Assembly: GCA_026075535.2 (NCBI GenBank) | Contig: AP026540.1 | Span: 9,486,001-9,550,000 of the forward strand | Source of the DNA: Tricholoma matsutake | Taxonomy: Eukaryota; Basidiomycota; Agaricomycetes; Agaricales; Tricholomataceae | Length of the DNA stretch: 64,000 bases | Direction: 5' to 3' | Part shown: in pieces, positions 10,726 through 39,005 of the stretch | How positions within the stretch are numbered: the first letter of the stretch is position 1 | Layout: each line of letters starts with the position of its first letter | Notes under the pieces: generated by a model | Databases searched by the model: none | The model's input: only the letters and a program-made list of their open reading frames with translations | What the model was told of the DNA's origin: nothing | Made by a program: the position numbers and the translations under genes

Positions 10726-10864
10726 ATTATTATATTATACCCACTCCCTCGTGTCCTACATGAGGGATGTGGTTAATTAAAATTTTTTGATCTTAATTGT
10801 TTAAAAAATGCCTCCTCAAAGAATATGAAAAGTTGAGTCATAAATAAACCTTATATTGATCCCC

Positions 10865-10980: not shown

Positions 10981-11039
10981 TTATGAAATTCACCAAGTCC
11001 GAAGTCCTTTGAGCTTATATCTAATTGACTTATCATTTG

Positions 11040-11280: not shown

Positions 11281-11307
11281 GGACAGGTGGGGGACTGTAA
11301 AGTACTG

Positions 11308-16680: not shown

Positions 16681-18150
16681 CTGCTGTTACCTGCACTGAA
16701 GCAGCAGTGCAGGAATCCAGGGAAGGTGCAGTTTGCATAAAGGAGCTTCATCAAGAACAGAAAGCAGGTAGACAGGCTGAAATGCACACCAATCACTCTG
16801 AAGAGCTTGCTGCTGGCAATAATGTTGCTAATGATCTCTGCCATGCATTTGAGAACCTCGATCTTGGCAATCAGGCACATGAGCTTCTTGCCCTGATCTC
16901 AGAAATGACTGATCTTGATCCAGAATCACTTCAATTTGAAGATGAGCCCTGAACATGGGATGAGGCAAAGGCGTCAGCTGATGCAGTTAGATGGGAAGCT
17001 GGGTATCATGATGAATTAAAATTGTTGAAAGAAATGGGGGTCTACAAGCTTATCCCTCACTCCAAAGTTCCTCTTGGGAAATGCATCCGAAAAGGGAAAC
17101 CTGTTTTTCACATCAAGCATGATGAAGAAGGAAAAGCAGTTAGGTGGAAACTATGTCTTGTCTTTAAAGGTTTTGAACAAATTTATGGCAAGGACTACAC
17201 TAAAACCACCTCACCTACTGCACACATGGAATCATGGAGAATCCTTTTACACATTGCAGCCTCTCTAGGTTGGGACATGCAACAAATTGATGTGAAGACC
17301 ACTTTCTTGTATGGCTTACTACCTGAGGATGAGGTACAGTACATGCAACAGCCCATTGGATTTGAAGAGCCTGGGAAAGAGGACTGGGTATGGCAACTTC
17401 AGCGAGGCCTGTATGGTATGAAACAAAGTGGCCGCATCTGGAACCAGACTCTCAATGCCCAGATGATCAAATGGGGATTTATGCACCTGGCCTGTGAGTC
17501 ATGCATTTATTACTGCAAAACTGATACTGGCATCATTATTTCAGCCTTCCATGTCAATGACTACCTCTCCATTGCTGACTCAAAGGAGGAAAATGAACGC
17601 TTCAAAGCCCAGATGCATAAGGTTTGGACGATCTCTGAACTGGGTACTGCACAATTTATTATGGGTATGGCTATATCCTGGGATAGGATCACATGAACCA
17701 TTTCACTTTCTCAGACTGCCCTTATTGACAAAATCACTGAACAGTTTGGTCAGAGAAATGTGCATCCGGTATCAGCCCCTCTTGAACCAGGTTGTAAATT
17801 TTGTTGTGTTAATCCACAATCCATGACTCCCAAGGAATGACTACAGCTTGACAAACTACCCTACTGGTCCCTTGTTGGCTGCCTACTTTATCTGGTGATC
17901 TCCACTTGGCCCAACATCTCATATGCCATCCAACAACTCTCCCAATATCTTGACTCCTATTACTTTGAACACTGGGGTGCAGCCATCATGCTTGTCTGCT
18001 ACCTCAAGGGGACAAGAGACCTTAAACTGCACCTCGGGGGTAATTTCCCTATTACAGTGGCTCAAAAAACTGTCCCAATGTTTGCTTGTTTTGTAAAGAT
18101 TGATCTGGTGAGCAATGCCGACATAAGCATAATGTTGGCGTAAATCAGAC
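16681..18150 (+). pseudogene. Copia reverse transcriptase and RNase H, truncated
   Basis: One frame open from 16620 apart from TGAs at 16950-16952, 17694-17696 and 17838-17840; in each place relatives have Arg, e.g. TWDEAKASADAVRWEAGY preceded by the stop. RT motifs: QQIDVKTTFLYGLL (first catalytic Asp), LQRGLYGMKQSGRIWN, and FHVNDYLSIAD, where the usual VDD is VND, so the polymerase is inactive. NISYAIQQLSQYLD and YLKGTRDLKLHLGG mark the end of RT. The RNase H part is lost after about 18145, where the KDZ block starts. Confidence 0.85.
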
Positions 18151-18156
18151 AAAGTA

Positions 18157-19450
18157 CTATGACATTATGGCTTTCAGAATATTCAACTTTTATGTGATTT
18201 GGATAAGAACCCATTGTTTAATAAGCAAAACAAAATGGTCACTCATTGGGACAGTTTTTTGAGCAGTTGTTTTTTTCTAGTCAATTACTTCAATTGACCC
18301 CATTCTGCCTTGATACCTGCCCTAATACTGTTGGGGATACTTTTTATAAGATGTTGGGGGACCTCTGGCATAATTTACCCTACTTCACTACTACACCTTT
18401 TTACCATTAAGGCATTGATTTTGATGATATCATGAATTTTCAGAATTGGCATTTCAGGTGTTTTCATATATGTTTAGATGGTTGAATTGAACAAACTGGA
18501 ATAGTACTTCAATATCATTACCTTGAAAGCAACATTTTACTTGCTTATATATATGCTTGCTGCTGTCACACTGCTAAAAATATCACCTGGTCTTCAGCAT
18601 TGCCAAATTTTAAAAGTGTTCTGTGTTTTTTTCCCTGAAAACTTTGCAACACTGCCTAGTATATATTCCCCCCTAAGTGTTTTCATACTGGGCCATTCTA
18701 TATCACAGCTATATCATGTGGTATAATCACAGAACACATACTCATAGTTTGAATGGCTTGAATAACTCAAAGGGAGATGGTCAGAGATCTCAGAGTTGGC
18801 TGAGTACCCTTAACCAATTTATCTTTCATAGTTTGATAAATATTTTCAGAATTTTTAGAATTTGTTTTCCTAAGTTACTGATGTACATGGCTAATATGAG
18901 AACAATGCAACTACAAATATGCTATAACATGCATTTATCTCACATGAAATCACAACTCTCAGTGACTTTAGACCATTATATATGGACTAACTAATGGTGG
19001 CTTTAGGCTGTATTTAATGGTCCAGCTAATGTGGGCCCATAGACTGTAATAGACCATAGAAGATGTGTGGGCTCATCTGGCAGGTATAAGTTCATTTAAA
19101 TAGAATGGGCTCATGGGTGAAATGAGTAGAGCTTTATACCACATGTGATGGGTGGGCCCATGGGATATGTTAGTATTGGAATAGACCATAGATGATGGGT
19201 GGGCTTATAGGACATGAGGACTTAGCAGTAGACCATGGATGATGGGGTGGGCCCAAGTGTAATTTTGGGACTGGTATGGATCATGTATAATGGGTGGGCC
19301 TATGTGATATGTTAGCATTGGAGCAGACCATGGCTGATGGGTGGGCCTATAGGACATATTGAGGCAGTAGACTATGAATGTTATGGTAGGCCCATGTAGG
19401 TCATGTTAGCAGTGTATTAGACAATGAGATGAGGCTCTTACCATTGCTAC
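18157..19450 (+). repeat. Left inverted-repeat arm of the KDZ block
   Basis: Contains the outer arm (18411-18510) and, from 18960, a CAGTG-starting arm with degenerate subrepeats of the type GACCATAGATGATGGGTGGGC. About 240 bp near 18170-18410 have no counterpart on the right arm, so the arms differ by an indel. No coding sequence seen. Confidence 0.65.
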
Positions 19451-19554
19451 ATCTTAGCCTTCCAAGAGACTACATGGTAGCAAATGCCCATATTACATAT
19501 CAGCATCATAGATTCATAGTAGACCTTGAATATTTATTTGTCCTCTACTTGTGG

Positions 19555-19765
19555 CTGGATTGAACCATCAGGGTGAGTACATCAGGATTGAACCATCTCA
19601 GTGAGTAGATCTTGATTGGTCCATCGGGGTAAGAATGTTGGGATTGAACCATCAGGGTAGGTACATCGGGAGAAGATTGTTCCATTGATGTAAGTCCATT
19701 GTGTTGGAATTTCATTGAGGTTAGTACCATTGGAATTGGTTCATCAATGTGGGAACATCAGATCA
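19555..19765. repeat. Minisatellite of about 31 bp
   Basis: Five to six imperfect copies of GGATTGAACCATCAGGGT plus AGTACATC. No function evident. Confidence 0.6.
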
Positions 19766-19925
19766 GAACATCAGTATATTTCCACTTTTCTATACTTTTG
19801 TTGGACTGTTCCAGCCTAATATATTTAAGTAGTGTTAGTGTCAGTGATAATATAATTCACTCTGATGTACTCATTCCTGCTTCAAGCTTACATCCCAATA
19901 TTGGCATTCATTAAAATAATGTAAA

Positions 19926-21221
19926 CTACAACTCAAATTTTGAATTGTTAGCTACATATGTCTTGAGGCAATCATGCAGTTGTTCAACACCAGCTGCAAG
20001 ATATAACTCTGCTTCCAACAACCTGGAGAGCAGGATGGCCTGCTTTTCCTTTGCTGTTGTCCTTACCTCAATGCCTCTTATTGCCTCTCCACTTCCACTT
20101 TCTCCTTTATCAACTCCTCGATGCCAGGCCGCAAGAGGAAGAAGCCGCCGACTCTTCAATCATTCCTTCCCCCCGATCCTCTACTGCTCTCCCCTTTCCC
20201 TTCACCGCTTTCCCAGATCCCAGCATGATGTCATCCACTTCCACTATCCCCACCGTCTCCTGCAGATTCTCCTCCTCCACAAATTCCACCTCATCTGATT
20301 CATTGCCACCATCATCCCCCAGCTGGTCCACCTGCTCCTCTTCCTCAGTTTCTGGTTTGGGTGATCGATTGTCTTCAGAGGTCGGAGAAGGTGGTGTATG
20401 AGATTGTGGCCATTTCGGGGATGGCTGTTCCTCACCGCATATTGTTGTTCCAACGTCATAGTCAGGTGTAGAAGCAAAGTCGATGGGGTCGGAGGCTGGA
20501 GATGACAGAGTTTTCAGGATGGTGACAATTGGGGGTGTTGGTGGGTGAGGAATGAATACAGGCCTTGTCCTGAGAGGAAGAGGCGGGGGCGGCAACAGCA
20601 GTAATGGCAGTGGAAGTAGCGAATCCAACTTAACATTTCCTTCCATAATTCCTTCCATCTGGTGCTTGTTTATAGTCGCCTGTCGTATGTGGAGTGGGGT
20701 TCCCTCCTCCAGTGGACTCTTGAACCTCACATGTCTATCATCACCCTCCTCGACATATCCACCAAGTGGAAGTGTGGGTGCCGGCATGCCATAGAATTGG
20801 GAAGATGGAATGAGTCCCCCCACAGAACCCTCTTGAAATTGGGGATGGATAGCTGGCAGTCTCATCATGGCTATTGGAACCTGAGGAGGTGCCAGTGTTT
20901 CAGGGAGGGTGGAGGTACTGGCGACCATCGATCTGCTCAGTTTCAGATGAGTTCTCAGTTTTGAAGATGGCTGAAATCCAGAATGAACCATCGGAGGCTC
21001 GATTTCAGCAGTAGAAAGAGTTAGCGGAGCTGTGTTGGGGTTGGGGACAGCAGATGTACTGCCATCTGAAGATAAGTCCAACTTTCAATGCTTTGTCAGT
21101 CTGGATGAGGGTTGGTAGTCCAGCATAGAGGGAGCAGGTTGTTTTGATTTCGGGACCACCTGAAAACCATGTAATTACAACTAAATTAGTATTACAATTC
21201 ACTTACCTTGATCTTTGGCAT
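19926..21221 (-). pseudogene. KDZ-block gene A: Pro/acidic-rich protein, left partner of a divergent pair
   Basis: Exon 1 is only 15 nt (21221-21207, MPKIK), followed by a 46-nt intron (GTAAGT...TTTTCAG) and a long exon from 21160. The protein is VVPKSKQPAPSMLDYQPSS, an in-frame TGA, KLDLSSDGSTSAVPN, long Ser/Pro-rich stretches (PLPLLLLPPPPLPLRTRP) and an acidic part (EEEEQVDQLGDDGGNESDEV). After a frame break near 20120 a helical tail follows (KEKQAILLSRLLEAELYLAA). Transcribed away from 21402, sharing a 180-bp upstream region with gene B. Family unknown; looks like a disordered regulatory or structural companion protein. Confidence 0.6.
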
Positions 21222-21401
21222 TGGAATATTGGTTTCAGGGATGTTTGAATTGTTTTAGTACACAAGTTCTCAATCGATCAATTGACTTACCATGTGGTTC
21301 CAATTGGATTCTCGCAAACAATACCGATCCAGTACTTCAACATTGTTCACTCAATCAATTAACAATACTTTGCCCTTCAGCTTTGGATATCAACTCTGCA
21401 A
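21222..21401. promoter_or_regulatory. Shared divergent upstream region of genes A and B
   Basis: Only 180 bp separate the two start codons, so both promoters must lie here or inside the genes. No TATA box or motif stands out. Inference from gene layout. Confidence 0.4.
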
Positions 21402-24040
21402 ATGCCTTCCTACAATCAAGTTGCTGAATCTTACATCAATGACATCCTCCCTTCCATTCAACCACATCTCCATTGATCTGTCACAAAGGCCATCTTCGGA
21501 GGTGATGAAGATCTTTTACTACTCCTTCAAGAACTTCCAAGCTCACCAGTATGTCTGTTAACTATCCAAATTTCATCCTATAATGTATCATTTCTATCAA
21601 ATCAGGGATTGAATACCCTCGTCAGGCAACAGTTGTTGGTATGGATTGACGAGTGCAAGCTGGAGATTGTTCTTCTACAACATGGCTGAGGCTATACAGT
21701 AAATGAGGAAAAATTGAAGAGTTGGATTGTACGTTAACTCAATTTACCTGTCAATGAGTTTCTAACTGTACTTCCTAGTACACTACTTCATCGGGTGCTC
21801 AAGATGTACTGGAATGTGAGGGAGATGGCAGATATGACTTTGTCCCATCTTGTCTGCTCATCAGCGCGGCCTTGCAGCTTGACCGACCTGATACTCAAGG
21901 AATGGAAGTTGACTTTGGCAAGATAAAGTGGGACGACCCCTTGTTGTGGTACCACCCGATGCTTTCAGAGGAGGGCAGCAGTACTCGGGAGTGGTTTTCA
22001 GAAGGGCATCAGACACCAGGTAGGTTTCACTCAGTTTAGCTTGAATTATCTACATATTGAATCACATATAGTACCTCGTGCAGTTCGGAACAGAGTAGCT
22101 GCCTCTACAATAAATCCAATCGTCATCCCAGGCAACATCCAGATTCATTCGAGGGATGAAATGTTGCAAATTATTCCCCCACCGCCCACTTCAACTGGCC
22201 CGGCTTCAAGTCATTGTAGCCTTCCTTTGGCCAGAATGACAGTCGATCCATCAACACAATACCAGCTTTTGAAAATGACTCCCATGGGACGGAGGAGCCA
22301 TTCACAGACTTGTATCAAAAGCAGTGAGTATGTGAACGACTCTTCTGATGAGATAAAGGAAGAGGCCTGGTTGGAAGAAGCAGGAGAGAGAGGGTGGAGC
22401 AGGATGAAGAAGGTGGATGTTAAAGGAAAGCAGAAGGATACAGCAGAGGTGATGGATGTGGATTCGGAGGAGGTCGACCAGCCTGCGGAGGGGTCATCAC
22501 AACCCTCAAGAAGATCACAACCCAAGGCAACAACATCAAAATCAAGCATGAAGCCTGGAACAGAGACCATGCATCCGCCGAATTTGGGCAACACGGAGGC
22601 TTGTGCAAGGTGTGTGAAGCTGGAGGTGAGATGCGTGTATGCGGGCAACACCGCTTGTTTGTCATGTCGAGGTTGCAAGCAGAAGTGTACAAAGGTTGTT
22701 GGGGAGTGGCGGACAAGAGGGAAAGCGACAGTGACGAAGGAAGGAAAGACACAGGTCATCAAGTCAGAACCAAGAGCAACCCCAACAACACCTGCATTGG
22801 GTGATGAAAACATGTTGGAACCCTCCCCATTGAACCCAAGCCTACACCGATCAACCAGGACCCAAAGCACTTCAAGGCCACCTGAGGCAGCTAAGGCTTC
22901 ATCAACCCCAAGCAGGGGATCGACGCCAAAGCCACCAGTGACACCAAAGAGAGGGACGACTTCAAAACCAACAAGGGCAGCAGTGGCGACACCAAAGGCA
23001 AAAGGAAAAGCAAAGCCAAGAAGTAGATCCAAGTCAAAATCCAGGAAGACGGATGAGGACAAAGCCATGTCGGATGGTGGAGAGACTTGCTGAGGGAGTC
23101 CAGGGGTGGTAACAGTGCATCCATTGGGGCAGGTACCATCGGAGTACCTTTACTTTGTAAATCAGAAAGGGGAACAGGTCAGTGAGGCTGTCCGAGTTGT
23201 CAACAATGGTGAGGCGAGTGTTGAGGGAGAAATGGCAATAGTGCAACAGCTTCAATGGGAGAATAACTGACTGACTAAGGAGGTCACAGAGATGCGAGAG
23301 GAGATGAGGAAGATGAAGGAGATGATGGTAGCAATGGAAATGAGCCAAAGGGTGCTTATCAGCAACCACAATGCCCATACTGCACTCCTGGAACAGCATC
23401 AGCAAACATTGACCAAAGTCATGTCCCAACCTACAATGCCCTCCGACTGCTGAACACCTGAGGATGGAGGTGCCATGGAGAGTCTCAGCATGCCACCATC
23501 CTGCTTTTTGTCATCACCCTATTCCTCACATTCTATGAACATTGTCCCATATCCCTCCCCTTATCCCCCTAATGATTTCACATCACCCGTTATCACTCCG
23601 AGGAGTTCAAGAGTCTTCAACGACATTATTCAGCCCAGCATGTTACAGCTGAACAAACTCAGGATTACACCAAGTCCGAATCCTTCCAGTCAGTATCATC
23701 AAACCTCTGATGCTGCAATAGGGAAGAACGACCTGTTGCGGGACCATCCCATGCAGCTTTGGCGAGTGGACAGGATGTACGAGAGATGGCTTCACAAGTG
23801 GTAGCCCCGGAGGTTGCATTGAATACCATGCCAGAGGTTGAGAATGTAGATGAGAGTGATGGCGCAATAACAAAGGAACAGGAGGCCGAGAGACCTAGGA
23901 TGGTCATGCCCAGGATAATGGAATCTCTGGTGTCAGGAATGGAAGATGAATATGATAGAGATTCTTTTGCCATGGCAATCAATGAATCCGATGAAGAATT
24001 GGACAGGGATCATCAGTATAACTGGGAAACATTACTGTAG
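21402..24040 (+). pseudogene. KDZ-block gene B: zinc-cluster protein with five in-frame TGAs
   Basis: Exons 21402-21548, 21606-21728, 21779-22019 and 22072 onward join in phase through GT-AG introns. Start MPSYNQVAESYINDILPS. Conserved-looking N-terminal part (TKAIFGGDEDLLLLLQ, RQQLLVWIDECKLEIVLLQ, FGKIKWDDPLLWYHPM). A basic middle holds a seven-cysteine cluster at about 22605-22692 with spacing C-x2-C-x6-C-x7-C-x2-C-x2-C-x3-C, reminiscent of fungal Zn2Cys6 clusters, so DNA binding is plausible. A Lys/Ser/Pro-rich linker follows, then a coiled coil (TKEVTEMREEMRKMKEMM) and an acidic tail. TGAs interrupt at 21474, 21687, 23091, 23268 and 23451, with a frameshift before 23800. Confidence 0.7.
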
Positions 24041-24119
24041 TATTAAAATGATTATTGTCAACAGCTTTGGTAAGATAGGCATTCATGGATTACTGCATGC
24101 AAACTAGTACATAACTGAT

Positions 24120-24930
24120 GTGACAAAATGATGACCAGAGAAAACGACCCAACAAAATGACCTGACAACATGACCTGACAAAATGACCCAACATGATCTC
24201 ATGAAATGACCCAACAAAATGACCCAATGACCTGACAAAATGACCCGACAAAATGACCCAACACAATGAACCGACAACATGACCCGACAAAATGTCGGGT
24301 CATCTAGTGTCGGGTCATCTTGTGTCGGGTCATCTATTGTTGGGTCACAATACTTATTTGGTCAATTTGTCGGGTCCTTTAGTCAGGTCATTTTGTCACA
24401 TCCTCAGGTTACTTGGCTAGGTGATCATTTTGTCGGGTCATTTTGTTGGGCCATCCAGTGTTGGGTTATCTAGTGTCAGGTCGGTTTTGTTGGGTCATTT
24501 TGTCAGGTCATCAGGCCATTTTGCCAGGCGATCAGTTTGTCGGGTTGTTTTGTCAGGTCATCATTGGGTCCAGTCATTTCATCGGATCATTTTGTCAGGT
24601 CATCTAATGGCGGGTCATTTTGTTGGGTCATTTTGTTGGGTCATTTTGTTGGGTCATTTTGTCGGGCCATCCAGTGTTGGGTCAGCTACTGTCAGGTCAG
24701 TTTTGTCGGGTCATGTTGTCAGGTCATCGGGTCATTTTGTCAGGTGATCAGTTTGTCGGGTCGTTTTGTCGGGTCATCTACTGTCGGGTCATTTTGTCGG
24801 GTCATTTTGTCGGGTCATTTTGTTGGGTCATTTTGTTGGGTCATTTTGTTGGGTCATTTTGTTGGGTCATTTTGTTGGGTCATTTTGTTGGGTCATTTTG
24901 TTGGGTCATTTTGTTGGGTGGTTTGTCTAT
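24120..24930. repeat. Palindromic array of a 13-bp unit (GGGTCATTTTGTC)
   Basis: Left of about 24290 the units read in one orientation (GACCCGACAAAAT); right of it they read in the other. The centre is GACCCGACA-AAA-TGTCGGGTC. The right part (24600-24930) is very regular, with over 20 copies. Unspaced, so not CRISPR. It fills the gap between the convergent genes B and C. Hydrophobic frames here (GSFCWVILLGHFV) are repeat artefacts. Confidence 0.85.
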
Positions 24931-25144
24931 AGTGAATGCTCGAAAATTCCAAACAAAGACCACTATGCTTGTCTGGATACTATTCTATGTTTACATTTTC
25001 CTTCCCTTTTGTTTCTTCATCTCTGCCTTCTTTGGAATTATCTTTAAATTAGGCTGCTCACTTATTGGTACTGGTTTTTCAGTTGTGTTTCGAGTAGACC
25101 CCCTTTGAGGGGGCTTCAAAACTGCAGGACATTTCAATTATTCA

Positions 25145-27216
25145 TCATCTTGGACAAAATAGACCAAGCTTACCCAATGACTGTGAATGAGCAGGCACAT
25201 CGATAGAAACTTTTGGCTTCTTCTTCGGTGGTTCCTTTATCTTCTCAGCCAACCTCAATTTCATCACCTTTCCTTTCTGCATCATCTCTGGTTCTTGCTG
25301 ATCCCCCCCCTGAATCTCATACTCATTTGTTGCAGTGTTGGCACTCTTCCCAGCATCCACAGCCCTACCAGTCTGTTTGCTTAAAGGTTGCATCATACTC
25401 TTTTGAACAAGTTCCGTTGCCAGGCTGAGCTTCTGCCGTTTCCTAACTGGATGCATCTTGCTATTTCTGGAATTTCCTGTGATCAGAATTGGTGTCTTGC
25501 TTGGCCCAACCTTCGGTTGTCTGGACTGCATTACATCTTCCTCTTCCGATGACTCCATCTGATTGACCAATGTGAAATCAAACACTTCACCCGATTCCTC
25601 AACCTCGTTTAATGTGGGAGCCCTCCATTTATGCCTTCTTGAATCTGGAACAATATGGTCAGTCCACCTTTCCTCAGGCTTCTCCACCCTCTTTTCCTTG
25701 CCTTTACCCTCCCTCTCACTCTTCTTGGTCCTTGGGCGGCTTGGGCGGCTTGGTGTTTTGGCATCGGAATCAGCATCGGAATCAGAATCGGAATCAGAAT
25801 CATCTCTTGATCTCTTCTTTCCCTTCAATTTTTTGTCCTGATAGAATTTGAAACCGAAACCATTGCTTTCCTGATTAGAGTATCAAAATGTCAAAATCTC
25901 CTTGATCTGGTGGTCCTTCATAAGCTTGAAACCATCAGGAACCTGATCCTCCCCAAAGTACTTATTTGCATCTTCAATGAACGACATCCAAGGAGGGATT
26001 GCATGTTCATTACTGCAAGCCAGACCTGACAAGTCATCCGGGATGAGAATGAACAAATGATTGCCAACCCACTCACGATATGCTGACCCAACATATGACC
26101 TGATTAATGCTTTCTTATCCATCCCTTTGCTTGGCCAGTCAGTCAGCTCAGGAAGCAATGGATTCCTGTTGGCATCCGTATCCAACTGAACATATGGCTT
26201 TCGACTTGAGGTTCCAATAGGAACTTGGAACTTTGCTTCTTCAGCTGCAGCTAACAAAAGACAATTATTTTGAATCTTTCCAATGAGAAATTATCCATTT
26301 ACAATACATCTCCTTTGCATGCATGTTTAGAAGCCCCATGATTGGCTTGGTATCCCAATCTTTGTTTGCTTGGAAGAAAGACTTCCCTCCGAGATCTCCC
26401 ATAAATTCATGCCTACAAAGAAAAAGGTTTAACTGGCAGAAACAAATTCAGACAGTGAACAGACTTAATGCATTCGTGACAAGTACTCCATTCACTTCCT
26501 TGTGGCATGTTAATACCAAACAGTCCATTCCACAAGACTTTTTCATTTGCTTGCAGAAGGACTTCACATGCTTATGAGCCTGTTTTGCATTCCTGTTCTG
26601 CATTAGTATTGATAATACCAATATTCAACGTGAATGACCTACCTTGCTTGCTCCTCAGCTGGGGGACCCATTCGATTCCATATATCGGCCAGGTCCTCCA
26701 TCTTCCTTTTCTCTGCTTCCGATGTCTTCCTCCAAAGGTTACTCAACTCCTTCTGGTATGTGCCAAATGCCTTTTGATTGTCCGCCTTGCATGAAGTATC
26801 TTCTACCCATCCACCCATTTTTCCTTGAATCGTTTCCTTTAACTCCCCTTTTGCCTGAACGCCGAGAACCCTTCTACCCATCCATTTCTTGATCCCCTTA
26901 AATTTCTTGGACGATTCTCTAGTTCTTCCATATGTATGGAACCAAGCATATACACCCTGTTCAAAAATGCCCTGTTCAAAGGTGTTGCAAAATACTTTCC
27001 AATTCATGAACTGACCTTCTTCCTCAACTCCTTATCCTCCCTAGACCAGTGGGGATTCTTTTTCTTCATTTTGTCATAAACTTTCTGACCAATTCTGTTC
27101 TGCTGTGAACAATCTCCCTCTCGCCATTGTTCCTTTCTGGCTTCTAGGATTTCCACATCTTCCCCTGTCAGCTTAAAGTGGACGAGTTCGGGAGGAACAT
27201 GGGCTTCAGCTGGCAT
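25145..27216 (-). pseudogene. KDZ-block gene C: expanded mushroom family protein
   Basis: Start MPAEAHVPPELVHFKLTGED at 27216; exon 1 ends at 27016. Introns with good borders separate exons carrying GIFEQGVYAWFHTYGRTR, ADIWNRMGPPAEEQAR, AKQAHKHVKSFCKQMKKSC, HEFMGDLGGKSFF-like, and AAEEAKFQVPIGTSSRKPYV plus GNHLFILIPDDLSGLACS. An in-frame TGA at 25883-25885 precedes a basic/acidic tail (KGKKRSRDDSDSDSDSD). The opening and the WNRMGPP motif match a family found in many copies in Agaricomycetes next to mobile elements; its role is unknown. Divergent from the Myb/SANT gene to the right. Confidence 0.7.
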
Positions 27217-27309
27217 AGTGTATAGTGATGTAATGTATGTGATGTGATGGTGGATAAGTGTATTTTTGGCGTTGTGGTATTGAAACAAGTACAAATCAGG
27301 ATGCAGGGG

Positions 27310-28100
27310 AAATCATTTCATTATGGAATCAATTATACCAATCATTGTCGATTATGGTCGATCATGGTTGATCAATTTTGATCATTGTTGATCATTGTTG
27401 ATCATTAATTAATCCATCGATCCTGAGTCTTGAAAAGCCCCTAATTGTATGAGTCCAGTCACTGATCACACATATTGACCAATATGCTCCAAGGAATGCT
27501 CAGAAATGCTCAGAAATCATATCAGTGATCATTTGAAGACCAATCTTTCAGTTTAATCAAACCACTTGTCAACTTTCTTTTTGTCACCTAGTATGAAGTC
27601 ATATATTCAAGTCAGTTGGCATCACTTCTAGATAGTTTGGTTGTAAAAAGGCATAAGAAAAAAAGCACTGTCTAAATCATAAATCCCCATAATATACATT
27701 CTTCAAAGATAAGATGAGATCATGAGGAACAAGTGTCATTGGTTGTTTCATGGTTAGAAGTTTCTGATCTAATGTAAATTGCAGTTCGTACATCACCATC
27801 TACTTACGTTCTGAACAAAGCAAAACTTGGAGTTTTTGAGTTAAAACCTTAAATTCTTAACATGTCTAACAATGTATTCAGAACTTATGGAGTTAGAATA
27901 TTGTACAAATGTCATTTGTGTGATAGACTTGATACGTCATGATTGTGCAGTCACATGATAGCCACTAAATCTCCCTACCATCTTCTTCAATACTACTTGA
28001 ATACTACTACTACTACTACTAGCTTTGCATTCTTTGACCTGACATTTTGACCAGTTTTTTAACGTTTACCTGACTTTGTTGACTTGCACCTAACTATCAT
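27310..28100. other. Intergenic with GTTGATCATT repeats; no gene
   Basis: Contains a short run of TTGATCATTG repeats (27350-27410) and a (TAC)n run near 28005. No supported coding sequence. Confidence 0.4.
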
Positions 28101-28181
28101 GTGACTGAGAAATTTCCTTTTTTACAGAGGGTAACCTGCCGGCGGGTGCCAAAAGACTTCGTTCTCTGCCTCCCTCCCGCA

Positions 28182-29531
28182 ATGTCTCTAGGTTTCGATT
28201 ATATGCCAATTGATAATCTACATCAACACATTCTTCACTACGCAGCTGCTGCTGTACAGATCTGTCTCCCTATCCTTATGGATGTGCTCCCCTCCATCAA
28301 TGCTGATGATGCCACAACATCCGAAGCAGTGAAGAGTCAAGCGAAGAAGTGGTCAGATCAAGAAATTGAAGACCTCGTTGCTTTCTTGTACAACTGCCCA
28401 GCTCTCCAGGGAACTTCAAGCCAGTTGTCTGGACAGCAGCTAAACTGCATCTTGACACCAAGCACCCACATTCTCTGCGAACAATAGCTGCCATCAAAGC
28501 CAAGTTTACTATGGTGCATGATATAATCATTCTACATCCTTTTCCTCCATTTTACTATTCTACTAGTATAAAGATATGTACAGGGTGGTTGAGGATTACT
28601 ATGGAAGGTTGGGAATGGGTGCAATGCCTGCTGGATCAGGTATCTGGGCACAAACGAGTGCCAAGCTTCAACATTACAAGGATTTTGAGAAGAATTTAGG
28701 GAAGGAACAGGTATGTTCCTGTTATATTGTTATTTTCATATGTATCTAACCTTCAAATCACAGAAAAGGTACTGTCGTCAGCTCCTCAATGCATCATTTC
28801 CACAATATGCGAAAATGCAAGTGATCATGGAGAAATCTATCGCGAAAGGTCAATTTGCACACAGGGGCACTGCCCAAGCCCCCCCCAACCTCTTGATTGA
28901 TGGGAATGGTGAGGTTAATGAGACTGGGCATGCTGCCCCTTTGTCTTCAACCAGGATCATCTTTCCTGCCACACAAGACGGCTTGACTTTCATGGATGTT
29001 GTTGATCCAGCCCTCCCATCAACATTGTCATGTCCTTTACTAGGCCAACTACCTGCAACAGCCTCATCTTTGCTCTCTATCCTATCAGTCCCGACAACAA
29101 CTCCATCCTCAGCCCCTCTTGCTTTGGCATTCTCACAGCCCCCTTCACATCCCCTTATGTCAGCATTCTCACAGCCCCCTGCTTCGGCATCTTCGCATCC
29201 CCCTACGTCAGCATCCTCACATCCCCCTACCCCGGCATCAGCTCCTAGAATGCCCTCAGTGAAATCGAAGTCATTGGGAAAATGCAAATGGGCATCAGGG
29301 GATGATCACATGCCCGATCGGCCACCATCCAAAACTGCTTCAAAGCCACAATCAAGTGCAACGACATTGACAAAGACCAATACAAGCATCTCTGCTCTTG
29401 TTGGAGCAACTGGGGCCATCAACAATCTTAATACGACTATGCAACAAAGCCTGTTTCAATCGGATGCGCGGCAAATTGAGTTGGCAATGGAGCTGATCAA
29501 AAATGCAGACCATATTGATGATAATGAATGA
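28182..29531 (+). pseudogene. PIF/Harbinger-associated Myb/SANT-like DNA-binding protein
   Basis: From ATG 28182 (MSLGFDYMPIDN). A SANT-like domain starts KKWSDQEIEDLVAFLYN, then shifts frame by one base at about 28410 into NFKPVVWTAAKLHLDT and AAIKAKFTMVHD. An exon with MGAMPAGSGIW-type sequence and another with RYCRQLLNASFPQYAKMQ and AKGQFAHRGT follow. The pattern W...L..Y/FL.......FKP.VW..A matches Myb/SANT partners of Harbinger transposases. A long Ser/Pro linker and a helical C-terminus (QIELAMELIKNAD) end at 29531. Convergent with the transposase fragment at 29690-30100. The frameshift suggests a relic. Confidence 0.7.
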
Positions 29532-29689
29532 GGTGCTCTTTCATTCTATTATAGCAATAATCCAAATGCTGCCGGTAGTCTCATAGCCATGTCTGATGTG
29601 CAGTGGGAAAATACATTGCGTTATGCTCTCCAAACAATCTTGAAGCCAGCTGTATCCTAAATTTTTGTACACTAACTGTACTGTACACT

Positions 29690-30100
29690 GTATTACTCTA
29701 CACCTGTATTGTACAAAATTTCATCAATGTCGTCACTGGCCTCGCATTCTCGCAAAATCACCTGATAGCTATTCCACATTGACTGTGCAATCTTGTTTTG
29801 CCAACCCACAACCGCCCCATTTGGGATGTTGTCTTCTATATTGCTGGCTTGTCACACAAAGCCATCACCAGTGTGGCCACCTTGGTTTGGGTATTCTTCA
29901 CTTTCAAGTTCTTCTTCGTGAGGATCATGAATGCGAATAAAATTATGTATAGCACACAATGCTGCTGGAATTTGTGCTTGGATTGTCATGTCATATTCTG
30001 GGCCAATCAAAAGTATGCGAAAGCGCTTCTTGAGAACTCCAAAAATGTGCTCGATTACATTTCTTGCCTGAGTGTGACGCTGTCATTACAAAGTTACCTG
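29690..30100 (-). pseudogene. PIF/Harbinger transposase, C-terminal fragment
   Basis: On the minus strand: RHTQARNVIEHIFGVLKKRF, which holds the third catalytic acid (E of the VIE.IFGVLK motif of DDE_4 transposases), then YDMTIQAQIPAALCAIHNFI and QNKIAQSMWNSYQVIL. A TGA at 29852-29854 sits where relatives have Arg. The two catalytic Asp regions upstream are missing; the sequence switches abruptly to KDZ-type sequence at about 30100. Confidence 0.8.
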
Positions 30101-30102
30101 AG

Positions 30103-31123
30103 ACAGGTTGGTGGTGTCCCGACAATGACCGAGCAAATCGAAATTACTAAAAAACAAAGTCGGCTTCTCACAAGAATCTTGGATCATCAGAGGAAAGCAA
30201 ATCACTTTCTCTGACCTGACTCATCATCAGAAAATATCAGTTCCTCCTATGAGCCCTCCAAAGTCTTCGTCACTGATGATGATGGTGAGATTGATCTAAT
30301 CTCTTGCCCTGTTTCATCCAACCCATTCAATGATGTGGGATCGGGGAACAGGCCTGATACTTCTGTCATTGCATTGCCATCATCTCTGACCGCCAAAGCA
30401 ATCAGAGAGAGAGGGCTGGAGGAGCTGGCAAAGCTTGAGACAGAACTTCGGAGTGGGCAGTGCAACAACAACCTCAAAGGGATCAGGCTCATGCTGGGAA
30501 AGAAAGCTTTCTTGTTCATTATGAAGATCCGACCCAAGGGACCTAAAACAGGAAAAACAAAATCTTGGGATGGTATTCACTCTACCGACCAGGCCTTACA
30601 ACTCTATGCTCAAAACTATCAGGCTGGTAGGGAAGCCCTGGTGTCATCGGGAGCTTCAAAAGAAAAGCTAGATCAATTCCAAATCCTTGATCAGAGCCAT
30701 CTAAAGACAAGTACTACATTGATAAACCCAAAGGAGTCTGGATGGAAGCATGATTCATTGCCATGGTTCTGGTATATGGATGTCGAGGGTGACAGTTTGT
30801 CATCTAATTATATGAAAGAATGTGAGTGGATGAAAGATTGACTGATGTGTAAAACTAAAGATATATATGTAGTTCACCGGGTGAACTGGCTGAGAGCAAA
30901 AGCAGCATTTGAACGAGTGATGGAGGAAAACACCCTTGTTCGGTATGAGATGAAATGGACAACAGCATACTTCAATCATCAGGCAGCAGAGTGGAGGAAG
31001 AGAAAAGCGGCTGATTACTCTCATGGACATAAGATCTATGCTGCACAACAGGAGGCGATGTGGGAGGATTTTGCTAATACAGCAAGGAAGTCATTTATTA
31101 GATTGGGGGTGAATATTGATTAG
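30103..31123 (+). pseudogene. KDZ transposase, C-terminal region
   Basis: Reads EQIEITKKQSRLLTR, then an in-frame TGA at 30212-30214, then PDSSSENISSSYEPS, LAKLETELRSGQCNNNLKGI, LGKKAFLFIMKIRPKGPKT, SWDGIHSTDQALQLYAQNY, DSLPWFWYMDVEGDSLSSN. A 51-nt intron (30822-30872, GTGAGT...TGTAG) joins NYMKE to FHRVNWLRAKAAF, followed by YEMKWTTAYFNHQAAEW and a His-Lys-Ile-Tyr-Ala end. This is the characteristic C-terminus of mushroom KDZ (Kyakuja-Dileera-Zisupton) transposases. The CxC2 domain and catalytic core are absent, replaced by the Harbinger relic, so no transposase is made from this copy. Confidence 0.85.
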
Positions 31124-31131
31124 AGTAGTAG

Positions 31132-31805
31132 TACATAAGTGTCCCGACCCGACACTAGATGACCCGACACTAGATAACCCAATAAAATGACCCGACAAAA
31201 TGACCCGGTGAAATGGCCAGATAAGTATTCCGACCCGACACTAGATGACCTGACACTAGATGACCCGATAAATGACCTGACAAAATGACCCAACACAATG
31301 ACCCAACAAAATGACCCGACAAAATGATCACCTGACAAAATGACCTGATGACCTGACAAAATGACCCGACAAAATGACCCGACACAATGAGCCAACACCA
31401 GATGACCCGACACTATGACCTGATAAATGACTCGTTTTGTCGGGTCATCTGGTGTTGGGTCATTTTGTCGGGTCATTTTGTTGGGTCATTTTGTCGGGTC
31501 ATTTTGTTGGGTTGTTTGTCGGGTCATCTAGTGTCGGGTCGCTTTGGTCGGGTCATTGTGTCGGGTCATTTTGTTGGATCATCTTGTCGGGTCATCTACT
31601 GTCGGGTCATTTTGTTGGGTCATTTTGTTGGGTCATTTTGTTGGGTCATTTTGTTGGGTCATTTTGTCGGGTCATCTTGTCGGGTCATTGCATCGGGTCA
31701 TTTTGTCAGATCATCTGGTTGGGTCATCTACTGTTGGGTCATCTGGTGTCGGGTCGGAATACTTATCTGGCCATTTTGTTGGGTCATTTTGTTGGATTGA
31801 TCTCA
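31132..31805. repeat. Second palindromic 13-bp array
   Basis: Same unit and same arm-reversal as 24120-24930, centre near 31430. The outer arms also match in reverse (AGATAAGTATTCCGACCCG at about 31220 against CGGGTCGGAATACTTATCT at about 31755). It lies between the KDZ transposase end and the convergent gene D. Confidence 0.85.
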
Positions 31806-31928
31806 CTTTCATTTTGCAGGGTGGTTTTATATTGTTGTAATTGTTTCACATACATTCGAATATCTTTCATGGTCCAAATGTAAATAATGATGATCCAATA
31901 TATAATTCCATAGGTAAGTCTCTCTCCA

Positions 31929-33521
31929 TTATCTCAAATCATCCTGTATAGCTGCCCGAATACTAGCCACTCTTGTTTGACTCTCCAACATGTTTCGATA
32001 TCCTGCCATCATAGCAGGTAGGAGTTCCCTTGGAAGTATAGGATGGTGTTGCCTGGTGTTTTCATCACCAGTGATGTTCTAAGATGATCACAATGAGCAT
32101 TGTCCAGTTACATTTAAAATTAAATCCAAGATGAAGAGGATCACTCACAAATTCTCTTTGTGCCTGAAGTGCTTGCTCCAGACTCATACCCCACTGGTTG
32201 TTCAAAGATATTGAGAACCAGGGCTGTCTTTTCTGGCCACTAGTGGTGGGATGTTCTTGTAAGTAATTAGAATGCAATCCTCTAATCTTTTCAAGGAGTC
32301 CAAGGAGCTCTTCTTCTGCCTTGACAATATGATGCATTTGTTTATAAACTTCTGGAACTATAATGTGGAAACTCTTCAGATAACATTTCCCCAGGAATTG
32401 TCGACCCACAGCCTGTCCAATTTTAGAAAACAGAATGAAATGACAGTTCCCATTGGTTCACTTACTGATTCTTCTCTAATCATTTGCAGATATTGCAATT
32501 TATGCTCCATTGAATGATTACTATTGGGACTGATTGCTGCCATGAACAAACTCCGTGAGCAGAGAAGATCCATGAATTCCTGTGCTTCAGTGTTGTTTGA
32601 AAAGGGGAAATCAACGACACCTTCATGGATAAACGCTGGAAATACATTCCAGTTGATGCTCATGGTTGGTTATTTGACCATCTCTCAAGTTTCAAGTAAA
32701 TATATCCAATGTTGATCATTACATAAGTTGCATAGCCATAAGCAGACTTCCAATCATCAAGACTCCATTATCTACTTTTGATCACCGGGTTAAAGGCAAG
32801 GTAAGTCAGACTGGACATTCCACATCGGAGACCTCCTCATCATCTACAAGATCTTCCCTTTCTATCAAGAGCTCTCCCACAGCCACATGTACCATTCCCA
32901 ATGCCAGCAATGAGTCCTGCTGACTTTGGCTGACATCAAGCAAAACCCTTGATTGGAAGGAAGGGGCAATTTCATTGACACCTGGCCCCACCTGTTATCA
33001 ATAAAAAATATTATCATTCTAGTATCTAATAATGAGATGTAGTGCTACATACCACATTCCGGAATCTCGGTACATCTGGGAAAAGGTCTGGATTGATGAC
33101 CATGGGAGTACTGATGATCCACCAAGGATCGAGGTATGGTTCCACAATCCTTGTCAAGTCGATGTCGGTAGTAGCCTCCCTGAGCGACGAAAGGCTTCCC
33201 TTGAATGTGCCAATGTCCGAACTTGATACATCCATGACCAAGGAGTGCAGTCTTTTTTGAAAAGGGGTGAGATAAAGGAACTTGTTCTCAAGGATCATCC
33301 ATCCAAGTATAATTTCCAGAATCCCCTAACACTGGATAAAAATGTAGTTATGTAGGAGTAATGCAACTTACAAGTTCTTGCTTCATCCTGGCTTTCCAAA
33401 TATGATAATACTCATTGAGACCTGACTGACGATGAGGCTGTTTAGCTTCAAGTGTTGCTGCGCTAGCCTGGGAGCAGAGATAATCAACAACTGCCTGGCA
33501 TGTTACTTTCAGAGCACTCAT
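31929..33521 (-). CDS. KDZ-block gene D: uncharacterised multi-exon protein, divergent partner of TET/JBP
   Basis: Start MSALKVTCQAVVDYLCSQ at 33521 (a longer start at 33611 is possible). Exons joined by GT-AG introns carry NEYYHIWKARMKQEL, GWMILENKFLYLTPFQKRL, RIVEPYLDPWWIISTPMV, VGPGVNEIAPSFQSRVLL, NWNVFPAFIHEGVVDFPF, VGRQFLGKCYLKSFHIIV, SLNNQWGMSLEQALQAQREF and a last exon ILPRELLPAMMAGYRNML ending at TAA 31931-31929. The junction between the exons at 32806 and 32663 is unclear, so this could be two genes. No stop in the exons given. Family unknown to me; position suggests a KDZ companion. Confidence 0.55.
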
Positions 33522-33824
33522 TGTCAGGAGTAATGATAGATATTGATGAGATTGATTAGAGAAATCAACATCTATCATTGATTGCTTATCGGTATCGGAG
33601 ATCAAAGTCACTGATGATGTTCAGATGATGTTCATAGATGAAAGATAACATCAATCGGGATCAGGATCAGGATGGACAACAATTGCAGTGACATTTCATT
33701 TCACTGGACATTCTTGACAATTGGAATGTCAGATATCAGATTGATTTGAGTGATCAGTAGATAAAGGCCCCTCTGATTTACATAAATACAATCTGTTGTC
33801 TATGTCAGATTCATCAGATTCAAC
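33522..33824. promoter_or_regulatory. Shared upstream region of gene D and the TET/JBP gene
   Basis: About 300 bp between divergent start codons. Contains GATCAGGATCAGGATGG-like short repeats near 33655-33675. Promoter role inferred from layout. Confidence 0.4.
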
Positions 33825-35199
33825 ATGTCATTACCATCTAACTTGCCTTTCTTCTTGACCGACACTGTTTTGGACTACCTCCGAGCCCGATTTTGGTGGG
33901 TGATTTCAAGGAAGCTCCATGAGAATCAGAACGTTCCTGATCTCACAAAGATGAAGGCAATTTGGCCAATCTATAACCAAGAGAATCCTGGCCCACTTCC
34001 TCCACTTTCACTATCAGTTCAACTCGCAGTTGACTGTGAACAAATGGCAACAATGGCAGCTGATGCTTATTGCAATAGAAGTAATATTTAGATTTTGTCA
34101 ATTTGAAATTTCTGGCTAAATGATTTCAGTGAAATTCGATGATCTTGATGTGCAAAGATATGACTCAAACATGTTATTGAAGAGACCGACTGGTCAGAAC
34201 GACTCCAAGGAGGATTCCTTGATCATGACAAGCCATTATGGTGGACAGAGACTACTTACCCAGCCAACCATTGTCCTAGACATGCATGAATGGATCCTAC
34301 TTTGGTTCCTGCCTGGCATCCTGAGCCCTGAAAGACAGGTGAGAACTTGTTGATATAATAATACCCCCCTCTGATTCATTTGACTATCACTTGGCTTGTA
34401 GAGAATTCTTTGGGAGGCTGCACTGAAGATGGATCAATCTCTCAGAGGATCCCTTACTCTGAATCCGACTCACACAAAATGGTGTTCAGATCCTCAATAT
34501 TATAAATCTCCTGGAAAATGTCAGCCTTATCCTGGCAATATCAATCTCTCGCCAGCTTGGTTCCAGCAAGCACACAATGTAAGTTGAAGGTTTTTATATT
34601 TCAGGGCCTTTAATTCTATCTTCTGATTGTTCTAGACTCCTAAATTCAAGCCTGAGATTTCAAAGACCTTGAAGGCGAGATCGGAGAACCTGAACACACT
34701 TGGATGGCTGAAAGAAACTTCAGAATCGTTCGCACTGATGGGTGCCTTGCTCAGCATTGTTCATCCTGAACTGTATGAGATTGGTTGAGGGGTGCTGAAG
34801 AAGGTGGGAGATTCTCCGGACATGGTAAAGGATGGTGAGGAGGTGCTAGAGGTTTTACGGCTGTGGACAACACCTTTCTCAGGATATGGTTTGATCAGTA
34901 ATTGCATTACCCCTATGCATCAGGACAACAATTCCCAAGGCCCATGGTACGACTGTTTAATGACCATTGGAGATTATGAAAAGGGAGCTTGGTTGAAACT
35001 CAAGAACCTTGGATTGGAGCTGGATTATCCTTTGGGAACAATGGTTTTCCTGCTGGGAAAGGTAATCCAACATGGAATTTCAGAGATTAATGGGAACCAG
35101 GTATGTATTGCCCAATATATGAGGGATAATGTTCATGAGAGGATGAGGATGAGATCGCCTGAGTGGACAACAGTGACCAAGACTTTCTCATCTGAATGA
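33825..35199 (+). pseudogene. TET/JBP-family 2-oxoglutarate/Fe(II) dioxygenase (5-methylcytosine oxidase type), one in-frame TGA
   Basis: Four exons: 33825-34080, 34130-34338, 34402-34578 and 34636-35199, joined in phase by GT-AG introns of 49-63 nt, giving about 401 codons. The C-terminal third is a double-stranded beta-helix dioxygenase core. It has the iron ligands PMHQDN (His309, Asp311) and IQHGIS (His360), with PWYDCLMTIGDY, LGLELDYPLGTMV and QYMRDNVHER in the order of fungal TET/JBP proteins. Such enzymes oxidise 5-methylcytosine in DNA. A TGA at 34786-34788 (YEIG-stop-GVLKK) lies upstream of the core; Arg (CGA) or Trp would be expected. Apart from that, the gene looks whole and all visible active-site residues are kept. 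It may be a very young pseudogene. Confidence 0.85.
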
Positions 35200-35309
35200 T
35201 TTGTATTTCCAATTTTATTTCATGATACAATATCATACTGGGTGACAAATGAACTTTTGTATGGTTATCTTCTGATGTAATGATGTGGAGCTAGCACTTC
35301 AACATATTT

Positions 35310-36131
35310 TGACCAGCATGCCCAACAGAGAACATAACCTTTGAAGGATGCCATGCACCAATACATGTGACCTTGCAGAGACCCTTGTGTGTCTTTCTTT
35401 GACCCATGGGCCCATTCATCATATGGTCCACTGCAGTATTAATATATATAACCCATGGGCCCATCCATCATATGATCCACTACAGTGTTGACATGACCCA
35501 TGGGCCCATCCATCATATGGTCCACTCTAGTGTTGACATGACCCATGGGCCCATCCATCATATGTTCCACTATAGTGTTGACATGACCCATGGGCCCATT
35601 CATGACAAATGGCCTATAGCAGTACTCATATCACCCATAAGCCTATCCTATTTCCATGACCTTATATCTACCACATGAGCCCACTTATCTACTATGGTCT
35701 GTTATAATCCATGGGCCCAGATTAGCTGGACCATTTCAAACAGCTTAAAGCCACCATTAGTTGGTCCATTTGTAATGGTCCAAATACACTGAAGGGGCTG
35801 ATGAAATTACATAGTTGAGGTCATGGACAGTTGGAAAGAAATAACCTTTGTAAGAAATAACAGTTTTTTAAAGAAGAAAGTGGAGAAATATGTTGAAATA
35901 TTGAAATCAAAAGTGATTGTGCAGTGTATAGTGACATTATAACCTTAAACAGATATTCTGGCATACAGAATGGTGGAGTAAGGATGATGGAATTCAAGTA
36001 CTCTTCTAATATGTTGAATTGAATGCTATTAACCTTCCATAAAATCTATAAGAACACCTGAAATGCCAATTCTGGAAATTCATGATGTCATCAAAATGAA
36101 TGCTTGAATGATAACAAAATGTCATAGTGGC
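35310..36131 (-). repeat. Right inverted-repeat arm of the KDZ block, with 45-bp tandem repeats
   Basis: Five tandem copies of about 45 bp start ACCCATGGGCCCAT at 35402, 35451, 35496, 35541 and 35586. The reverse complement of 35700-35791 matches 18960 onward, and that of 36020-36115 matches 18411 onward. Short frames here are repeat artefacts. Confidence 0.7.
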
Positions 36132-36280
36132 TAGGGAATGGCATGGGTAACCCGCGGGTGTTCAAAATTTAACCTGTACTCTGACCCGCAAGGGTATTTA
36201 CCTGTCAACCCATGGGTTTTCATCCACGGGTCACCACGGGTATGGGTATACACCATGGGTTGTACTATAAAATCCTGTAA
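36132..36280 (+). mobile_element. Left end of another TAGGG..GGGTAACCC hAT-like element
   Basis: TAGGGAATGGCATGGGTAAC at 36132 matches the terminus of the element at 13226 (TAGGGCACAGCATGGGTAAC) with few changes and continues in (C/G)GGGT-rich sequence. The other end and a target duplication were not identified; the body may run on through 37517 and 39006-39340, interrupted by other insertions. Confidence 0.5.
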
Positions 36281-37517: not shown

Positions 37518-39005
37518 TAGGGTGTAACACGGGTTACACCGCGGGTGAGTTTGATGCTTACCGCACCCATACCCGCATACACCGCACCCGTTAGTACACC
37601 ATACCCGTGGGTATGGGTTTTAACCATGGTGTTTTAGTAAACACCACGGTGCAGACACTTGTAGCTACTACATAATGAAAACATCAAAATAAAAAAGAAT
37701 GACACATCACAAGCCTCTCGTTTCACTGGGCCCTTCAAACGAGATGTAAATAAATTAGAATGAAGCATAAGATGATAAGAAATGAAGCAGTTCTGCCATA
37801 CCCAGGTTGTAGCCACCACATAATGAAAACATCAAAATGAAAAAGAATGGCACATCCCACGCCTCTCGTCTCACTGGGCCCTTCAAACAACATGTAAATA
37901 GATTAGAATGAAGTATAAGATGATAAGAAACGAAGCAGAACTTGCCGAGTTCTGCCATACCCAGATTGTAGCCACTACATAATGAAAACATCGAAATGCA
38001 AAAGAACAGCATGTCGCAAGCCTCTCGTCTCACTGGGCCCTTCAAACGACATGTAAATAGATTAGAATGAAGCATAAGATGATAAGAAACGAAGCAGAAC
38101 TCACCAAGTTCTGCCATACCCAGGTTGTGGCCACTACATAATGAAAACATCGAAATGAAAAAGAACGGCAAATCACAAGCCTCTCGTCTTACTGGGCCCT
38201 TTAAACAAAATGTAAATAGATTAGAATGAAGTATAATATGATAAGAAACAAAGCAGAACTTGCTGAGTTCTGCCATACCCACATTGTAGCCACTACATAA
38301 TGAAAACATCGAAATGCAAAAGAACAGCATGTCGCAAGCCTCTCGTCTTACTGGGCCCTTGAAACGACATGTAAACAGATTAGAATAAAGTATAAGATGA
38401 TAAGAAATGAAGCAGAACCCACTGGGTTCTGCCATACCCAGGTTGTGAGTACTGCATAGTGAAAATATCAAAGTGCAAAAGAATGGCACATAATAGGCCT
38501 CTCATCTCACTGGGCTCTTCAAATGACAAGGAAATAGATGAGAATCAAGTATGATATGAGGGAGAAACAAAGCAGAACTGACCAAGTTCTGCCCATTCCA
38601 AGTCATAACTACTACCAAGTGAAAATATCAAAATTGGAAAGAATGCCATATTGTAGGTCTCTCATCTCACTGAACAACATACAAATAGATTAGAATCAAG
38701 TATAAGATGATAAGAGCCAAAGTAGAATTCAAGTTCATCTTGAAGTTAGGTAGGCACTGTTTGGCATTATGGATCATTGAGTATGGGTCTATAGTGCATG
38801 TGCTGTGAAATCTCACTTGATCAAGTATCCTACATAGCAAAAAGCAAGAACTAGTAGCGGATAGTACTCAGACACCATCTATACCTGTGATACCGTCAGA
38901 CGGGTTGCGGTATAGCATGGTGTTCTATTTTCAGACACCGTACCCGTACCTGTACAACCCGCCATGTGATCACCGCGGGGATCACCGTACCCATGATATA
39001 CACTA
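37518..39005. mobile_element. 1.5-kb hAT-type element carrying a 159-bp satellite
   Basis: Perfect 8-bp duplications ACAACAAG at 37510-37517 and 39006-39013. Ends TAGGGTGTAACACGGG and, inward from the right, TAGTGTATATCATGGG. It is inserted in the GGGGACAA minisatellite. GGGTA-rich subterminal sequence on both sides relates it to 13226-14254. No transposase. Confidence 0.8.
37662..38730. repeat. 159-bp satellite, about 7 copies
   Basis: Unit starts (TAGCCACTACATAATGAAAA) are at 37662, 37810, 37969, 38128, 38287 and 38446, spaced exactly 159 bp apart from 37810 to 38446; the first unit lacks 11 bp, and later units are degenerate. Because 159 is divisible by three, the minus strand has a 244-codon open frame of 53-residue repeats (KGPVRREACD in each unit). 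Confidence 0.85.

Follow-up and report, generated by a model that had tools for sequence, protein, structure and literature searches.

A Kyakuja element inserted into a MITE

We analysed a 64,000-nucleotide stretch of the Tricholoma matsutake genome (the window; G000:C3:9486001-9550000 in genome coordinates), in which positions 18951-35800 are occupied by a Kyakuja (KDZ) DNA transposon of 16,850 bp that carries a TET/JBP gene and four companion genes, A to D. The element lies inside a miniature inverted-repeat transposable element (MITE) and is flanked by a target-site duplication (TSD). The features of this block are given below in window coordinates; the gene models are home-made predictions from sequence, and sister homologues are those of a diverged second family described further on.

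18380-18950 and 35801-36136: MITE, about 0.9 kb, with inverted repeats of its own (genome copies, uninterrupted junctions)
18944..18950, unstranded: left TSD copy, ATGAAAT, 7 bp (empty site in MITE copies; perfect 7-bp TSD in 5/5 copies with both flanks)
18951..35800, plus strand: Kyakuja element, non-autonomous copy, CA..TG ends (ends, TSDs and sibling-copy alignment)
18951..19356, plus strand: left terminal region with 47-bp tandem units, an imperfect inverted repeat starting at 18959 (window self-comparison, tandem-repeat search)
20113..21084, minus strand: principal reading frame of gene A, with uncertain exon limits for the full gene (52 loci of at least 75% identity; sister homologue 24%, E 3e-10)
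21476..24040, plus strand: gene B, approximate limits, comprising N-terminal exons, a Zn2Cys6 cluster at about 22602-22688 and more exons (predicted model, copy comparison, Pfam)
24113..24930, unstranded: palindromic array between the convergent genes B and C, built of 13-bp units, first TGACCCGACAAAA, then TTTTGTCGGGTCA (tandem-repeat search, unit counts)
25145..27216, minus strand: gene C (sister homologue 38-49%, best E 4e-43)
28182..29531, plus strand: Myb/SANT-like gene (predicted model; Myb_DNA-bind_4 E 0.0036, below cut-off)
29692..30079, minus strand: PIF/Harbinger DDE transposase, C-terminal remnant (alignment to a sibling copy on C3, Pfam there)
30080..31123, plus strand: KDZ transposase, C-terminal remnant, core deleted (alignment to the same C3 copy, Pfam there)
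31140..31800, unstranded: second palindromic array of the 13-bp unit TTTTGTCGGGTCA, at the KDZ/D convergent boundary (tandem-repeat search, unit counts)
32065..33578, minus strand: gene D, multi-exon, limits approximate (homologue in the sister 28-51%, E 1e-19)
33825..35199, plus strand: TET/JBP gene, exons 33825-34080, 34130-34338, 34402-34578 and 34636-35199 (predicted model, Pfam on a sibling, CcTET match)
35400..35800, minus strand: right terminal region, inverted partner up to 35792, 45-bp tandem units (window self-comparison, tandem-repeat search)
35801..35807, unstranded: right TSD copy, ATGAAAT, 7 bp (empty site in MITE copies; 5/5 copies)

An initial annotation of this block had proposed that inverted repeats surround it and that its genes form divergent and convergent pairs. 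The gene pairs are present in the window, and comparison of the window with itself revealed two nested inverted repeats, an inner pair at 18959-19356 and 35400-35792 (74% identity over 403 columns) and an outer pair at 18386-18513 and 35992-36129 (75% over 138). The block length of about 18 kb given there was too large, since the outermost repeats are the ends of a separate MITE into which the Kyakuja element inserted. MITE copies elsewhere, about 0.9 kb long, match the left flank of the block at 90-95% (full-length genome matches), both flanks are joined in one run at four MITE loci of window orientation, and the insertion point is uninterrupted in 7/7 retrieved copies. The outer inverted repeats were discarded as Kyakuja ends because MITE copies run straight through the insertion point.

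The termini of the element itself are of the CA..TG form (CACAACTCTCAGTG ... CACTGAAGGGGCTG), and its first 250 bp recur at 20 other loci with 99-100% identity (genome search). Comparison of several copies fixed both ends: perfect 7-bp TSDs were found in 5/5 copies of the same family, family 1, examined at both flanks (ATGAAAT, GGGTATA, CACCTAG, TGATAAC and AGTACAA). These duplications bear on whether the block is a mobile unit at all or a composite of independent insertions with unrelated flanks, a possibility that the initial annotation had raised. A composite could draw on the outermost repeats, which do belong to a separate MITE, and on the Harbinger-like gene pair inside the element, but the TSDs at the same two ends in all five copies and the single gene order in 31 clusters (see below) leave it extremely improbable.

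CA..TG ends and a 7-bp TSD match the features that Kojima reports for Kyakuja, as against the 8-bp TSD of Zisupton and Dileera (Kojima 2025, PMC12730594, cited throughout from parts of its main text). We assign the element to Kyakuja by these two features and the KDZ transposase.

The window copy has lost the KDZ core

Alignment to a sibling copy (C3:9050380-9071161), which shares the left and right parts of the element, revealed that 3.78 kb are missing from the window at 30079/30080. In the sibling this stretch encodes, on the minus strand, the larger part of a PIF/Harbinger DDE transposase (DDE_Tnp_4, PF13359, E 1.4e-22), as well as the KDZ core (PF18758, E 7.9e-39) and a CxC2 domain (E 1.5e-14). 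The KDZ gene of the initial annotation is therefore borne out in sibling copies, whereas the window holds its C-terminal remnant only, and the alignment rules out an intact KDZ gene there. The Harbinger remnant beside the Myb gene and the two palindromic 13-bp arrays are not listed in that annotation. The deletion looks private to the window copy, because no other cluster in the genome census described below lacks both DDE and KDZ while retaining A, B, C, D and TET, although short fragments cannot be judged in this respect. The TET/JBP gene had been recognized correctly (Pfam Tet_JBP in the C3 sibling, E 8.4e-16), and in the window an in-frame TGA interrupts it at 34786-34788, a codon that reads Arg in the sibling. 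To judge from its sequence, the window copy is a dead, non-autonomous, decaying element.

Complete copies carry seven genes in one order

We took a census by protein searches of the genome, in which 400 hand-transcribed loci fell into 96 clusters; candidates were scored for TET (111/161), D (106/221), A (79/79), KDZ (150/566), B (85/85), C (111/112) and DDE (150/263), and all counts are lower bounds. Clusters with at least one match of at least 75% identity, 74 of the 96 as a lower bound, were assigned to family 1. Each gene has at least about 50 loci in the genome, and at least 31 of the 74 family-1 clusters have the full set of seven (A, B, C, DDE, KDZ, D, TET) with order and orientation conserved, two of them with an extra reversed match and one with a nested sister element. 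Complete copies read A-B-C-[Myb + Harbinger DDE]-KDZ-D-TET.

Within 27 kb of KDZ or TET lie at least 39/52 A, 41/52 B, 44/54 C, 45/49 DDE and 51/52 D loci, compared to 1.9% of random points, a control for which 3 of 13 chromosome lengths were rough values. The initial annotation had viewed the block as a cargo-bearing KDZ transposon with TET and companions A-D, a view that would suffer if A-D occurred mostly without KDZ or TET neighbours; the majority of loci of each gene have such neighbours, and these co-travel counts and the recurrence in a sister element uphold it. Companion loci that lack KDZ and TET are partly fragments; the one that we read (C7:10675184) starts at the left end of the element and departs from it after window position 26805. 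The census also brought up a third, more diverged relative (G000:C10:8508997-8520125; A 69%, B 54%) with no KDZ or TET match nearby.

Among the 50 family-1 TET loci, KDZ lies within 27 kb at 43 and D at 50. This proximity to KDZ speaks against a TET that serves the host through genome-wide oxidation of 5-methylcytosine (5mC), with the element merely amplifying TET genes. A host role could appeal to the enrichment of 5-hydroxymethylcytosine (5hmC) and 5-formylcytosine (5fC) at transposable elements and TET genes in Laccaria bicolor and Coprinopsis cinerea (PMC8889193, cited from parts of the paper), but expression was detectable for just four of 46 L. bicolor TET genes in the same study, and Kojima argues against TET primarily serving the host (PMC12730594). 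We hold a host role to be quite improbable.

A diverged sister element shares most of the companion genes

In five clusters (C3:9958899, C4:7931753, C6:187078, C6:6902490 and C8:5330933) a C homologue (42-43% identity) lies together with KDZ (69-72%) and a reversed TET (50-56%); only C and TET are present in a sixth. We delimited the C8 copy, which runs from 5325729 to near 5343794 (about 18 kb) and has the TSD TGGTGAT and the ends CACCCCTCTCAGTG and GAATGCCCTG. By tblastn this copy contains A (24%, E 3e-10), the N-terminal exons of B (29-31%, best E 2e-12), C (25-49%, best E 4e-43), D (28-51%, E 1e-19) and TET (39-44%, best E 5e-87), with TET and D rearranged so that both lie on the minus strand; Myb, DDE and the gene B zinc cluster were not found by the same search. 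We read the genes common to both families (A, B in its N-terminal part, C, D, KDZ and TET) as an older set. Between C and KDZ, at the place of family 1's Myb/DDE pair, the sister has an unrelated minus-strand gene (L042:5814-7442) with no Pfam match. At G000:C4:7908916-7957889 a sister-family element is nested in a family-1 element, which brings together two TET-bearing Kyakuja families.

Mismatches between the families at first, second and third codon positions are.29/.24/.58 for KDZ (906 codons),.36/.24/.63 for TET (318),.35/.28/.63 for C (403) and.41/.32/.56 for D (103), compared to.41/.37/.47 for matches outside the gene intervals (355 codons, 68 of them C's first exon). Because of this codon-position bias C and D look selected, evolving like KDZ and TET as constrained proteins, rather than carried along.

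The sister bears on whether A-D are passengers that co-occur with KDZ and TET by common descent alone. Family-1 copies are only about 0.7% apart outside CpG, so that co-occurrence within the family amounts to co-inheritance; A has stops in 6/8 copies; and the Myb and Harbinger DDE genes probably are passengers of just this kind, with 45/49 DDE loci near KDZ or TET yet none found in the sister. Against such an account, three companions (A, C and D) and a portion of B are kept in the diverged sister, and the third-position excess in C and D resembles that in KDZ and TET. We consider it unlikely that A-D are mere passengers.

Predicted proteins of the TET and companion genes

The TET protein matches CcTET (7vpn) with E 7.9e-28, ungapped around the HxD motif, and has, besides HxD, Ser at position 331 and Asp at position 337 (CcTET numbering, counted from HxD). 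With the roles of residues 331 and 337 taken from PMC12730594, it is a predicted AG-type TET/JBP dioxygenase and hence a putative oxidase.

The initial annotation credited gene B with a zinc cluster of seven cysteines. The window cysteines reduce to CX2CX6CX7CX2CX6C, and the Zn2Cys6 pattern is CX2CX6CX5-12CX2CX6-8C. The position of the extra residue is Cys (TGC) in three, Arg (CGC) in three and His (CAC) in one of the seven alignable copies, a variation that rules out a special cluster and points to a decayed CpG in an ordinary Zn2Cys6 domain. In 42-44-residue peptides, the Arg versions score 26.8 and 26.3 bits against PF00172 and the window version 21.5 (cut-off 21; partial stretches), scores that are comparable only at equal query length.

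For gene C, a profile of one exon against PDB returned HMG proteins in 10/11 matches, at weak E values of 0.2-2 over about 34 residues; Pfam returned no HMG match, and the AlphaFold model of the exon is of low confidence (predicted local distance difference test score, pLDDT, 51). No Pfam match was found for A or D. Protein homologues, recovered without genome context, number one for D, three for C and eight for one C exon. Myb_DNA-bind_4 matches the Myb gene at 18.1 bits (E 0.0036) against a cut-off of 27. The Myb and DDE pair was also considered as a clean nested Harbinger element, a reading set aside for want of terminal inverted repeats (TIRs) and a 3-bp TSD: a search for ends around it gave four chance-like 18-bp pairs at 14/18 matches, none with a 3-bp TSD.

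CGG-bearing arrays at the convergent gene boundaries

CGG triplets are typical binding sites of Zn2Cys6 proteins. The density of CGG plus CCG is 24.5 and 40.9 per kb in the two palindromic arrays and 10.3 over the whole element, and the commonest variant units in both arrays are CpG decay products. The sister has arrays at the matching gene boundaries with unrelated units, the first ACCTATGGAACGGATGCC (Tandem Repeats Finder) and the second about ATTCCGTATCATCC (read by eye); these too are CGG-bearing, the CGG strand being opposite between the first and the second. This suggests the arrays as candidate binding sites for B, and with one CpG per undecayed unit they are also a candidate target of TET.

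Copies differ mainly by CpG decay

In the D-TET part of 10 copies, C/T or G/A differences occupy 166 of 194 CpG-context columns compared to 55 of 1285 other C/G columns; in the A-B part of eight copies the figures are 204/266 and 47/1264, with a mean pairwise divergence of 32% inside CpG columns and 0.7% outside. CpG decay accounts for most of the divergence between copies. Of 97 CpG sites, 35-56 are retained in each of the 10 copies, decay to TG is about as frequent as decay to CA, only three sites are decayed in a single copy, and TET is free of stops in 5/10 copies. The pattern is as expected from 5mC deamination in a young burst whose copies decay largely independently, and it would fit methylated copies, which by itself is no demonstration that TET helps. 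Gradual decay of this kind does not contradict Kojima's statement that hypermutation is undetected in Agaricomycotina (PMC12730594). The MITE gave no CpG control, as its seven retrieved copies have no CpG columns at all. The family, with roughly 50 copies, records cleanly how CpG sites decay naturally in a mushroom.

The ends of the element are CpG-poor, with 0 CpG in 18951-19450 and 1 in 34951-35450, which may protect the sites required by the transposase against CpG decay.

A possible joint role of TET and the companions

We think it likely that the window holds a damaged, non-autonomous copy of a large TET-bearing Kyakuja whose complete copies have the order given above and whose companions serve one life cycle. 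The KDZ transposase would move the element by cut-and-paste, the window copy being mobile only in trans. The host would methylate CpGs of element copies, and the AG-type TET would oxidise 5mC on element DNA and so render element genes transcribable. The companions would act in the same cycle, B as a Zn2Cys6 DNA-binding protein, plausibly at the CGG-bearing arrays, C perhaps as a factor that acts on chromatin or bends DNA, with A and D as partners; that they counter silencing jointly with TET is our hypothesis. A more specific version, in which Kyakuja carry a conserved anti-silencing module where B or C binds the CpG/CGG arrays flanking the C-KDZ block and recruits TET, giving a methylation-sensitive on/off expression loop, is speculative and, we think, unlikely. 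In the current view, TET-bearing transposons remove methylation marks placed by the host, which raises the questions of how TET is directed to the DNA of the element and whether further element proteins assist. A companion set shared by families whose TET proteins are just 44% identical, with apparent selection on C and D, provides candidate TET partners.

Several observations weigh against this overall reading. The zinc cluster of B was not found in the sister, the B matches between families include opposite-strand pieces, and in a longer query the window version of the cluster falls to 13.3 bits against PF00172. Codon bias is weak in A (.57/.37/.67, 51 codons) and B (.50/.42/.61, 166 codons), A is stop-free in only 2/8 copies, and the C8 sister copy is itself decayed, with stops in C and TET. 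The ratio of nonsynonymous to synonymous substitution rates (dN/dS) over 10 young TET copies is 0.56, or 0.63 with CpG columns masked, too weak for proof of selection, and we see no clear selection within the burst of copies. CpG decay is heavy despite the presence of TET, and in L. bicolor, where most TET genes bear 5hmC/5fC, the four detectably expressed of 46 argue against a strong TET effect (PMC8889193). Finally, two Laccaria Kyakuja families are reported without TIRs (PMC12730594), unlike the matsutake element, whose ends form an imperfect inverted repeat, although lack of TIRs does not define the group.

Relation to known transposons

An account of TET-bearing Kyakuja DNA transposons is reportedly found in Iyer et al. 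2014. Such elements are known from Agaricomycetes (Kojima 2025, PMC12730594), and the matsutake element shares with them the KDZ transposase, AG-type TET, 7-bp TSD and CA..TG ends. It differs in its imperfect terminal inverted repeats, in its length of some 17-18 kb or more and in having companions A-D, a Harbinger pair and CGG-bearing arrays, the last three being features of which we found no description in the main-text parts of that paper; the name Tricholoma was not found in its main text. In the literature searched and in these main-text parts we found no description of A-D as companions in Kyakuja; prior notice in the supplement of that paper or in Iyer et al. 2014 is possible. Within that scope the set of conserved companions looks new, as do the CGG-rich arrays.

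Other systems described in PMC12730594 offer partial parallels. TET-bearing IS3EU elements of rusts likewise combine TET with another conserved gene, an alpha-kinase, in a DNA transposon, but with a different transposase and an unrelated companion. Nuwa-type PIF/Harbinger elements have a Myb/SANT gene next to the DDE gene, as does the pair found here inside a Kyakuja, which, unlike them, has no terminal repeats or 3-bp TSD that we could find. The plant VANDAL (MuDR) elements, named there for their own anti-silencing protein, are DNA transposons that counter epigenetic silencing themselves; their proteins are unrelated, and the matsutake element has an oxidase, with companion-array binding hypothetical.

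Other features of the window

Directly left of the MITE, at 14278-18143, lies a remnant of a Ty1/Copia-type retroelement (RVT_2 E 4.4e-41, GAG-pre-integrase E 1.3e-8). A long inverted repeat pair of 80-86% identity is located far outside the block, at 8994-11307 and 60920-63128. At 37659-38593, a 159-bp tandem repeat is present in about five copies, with an open frame running through it.

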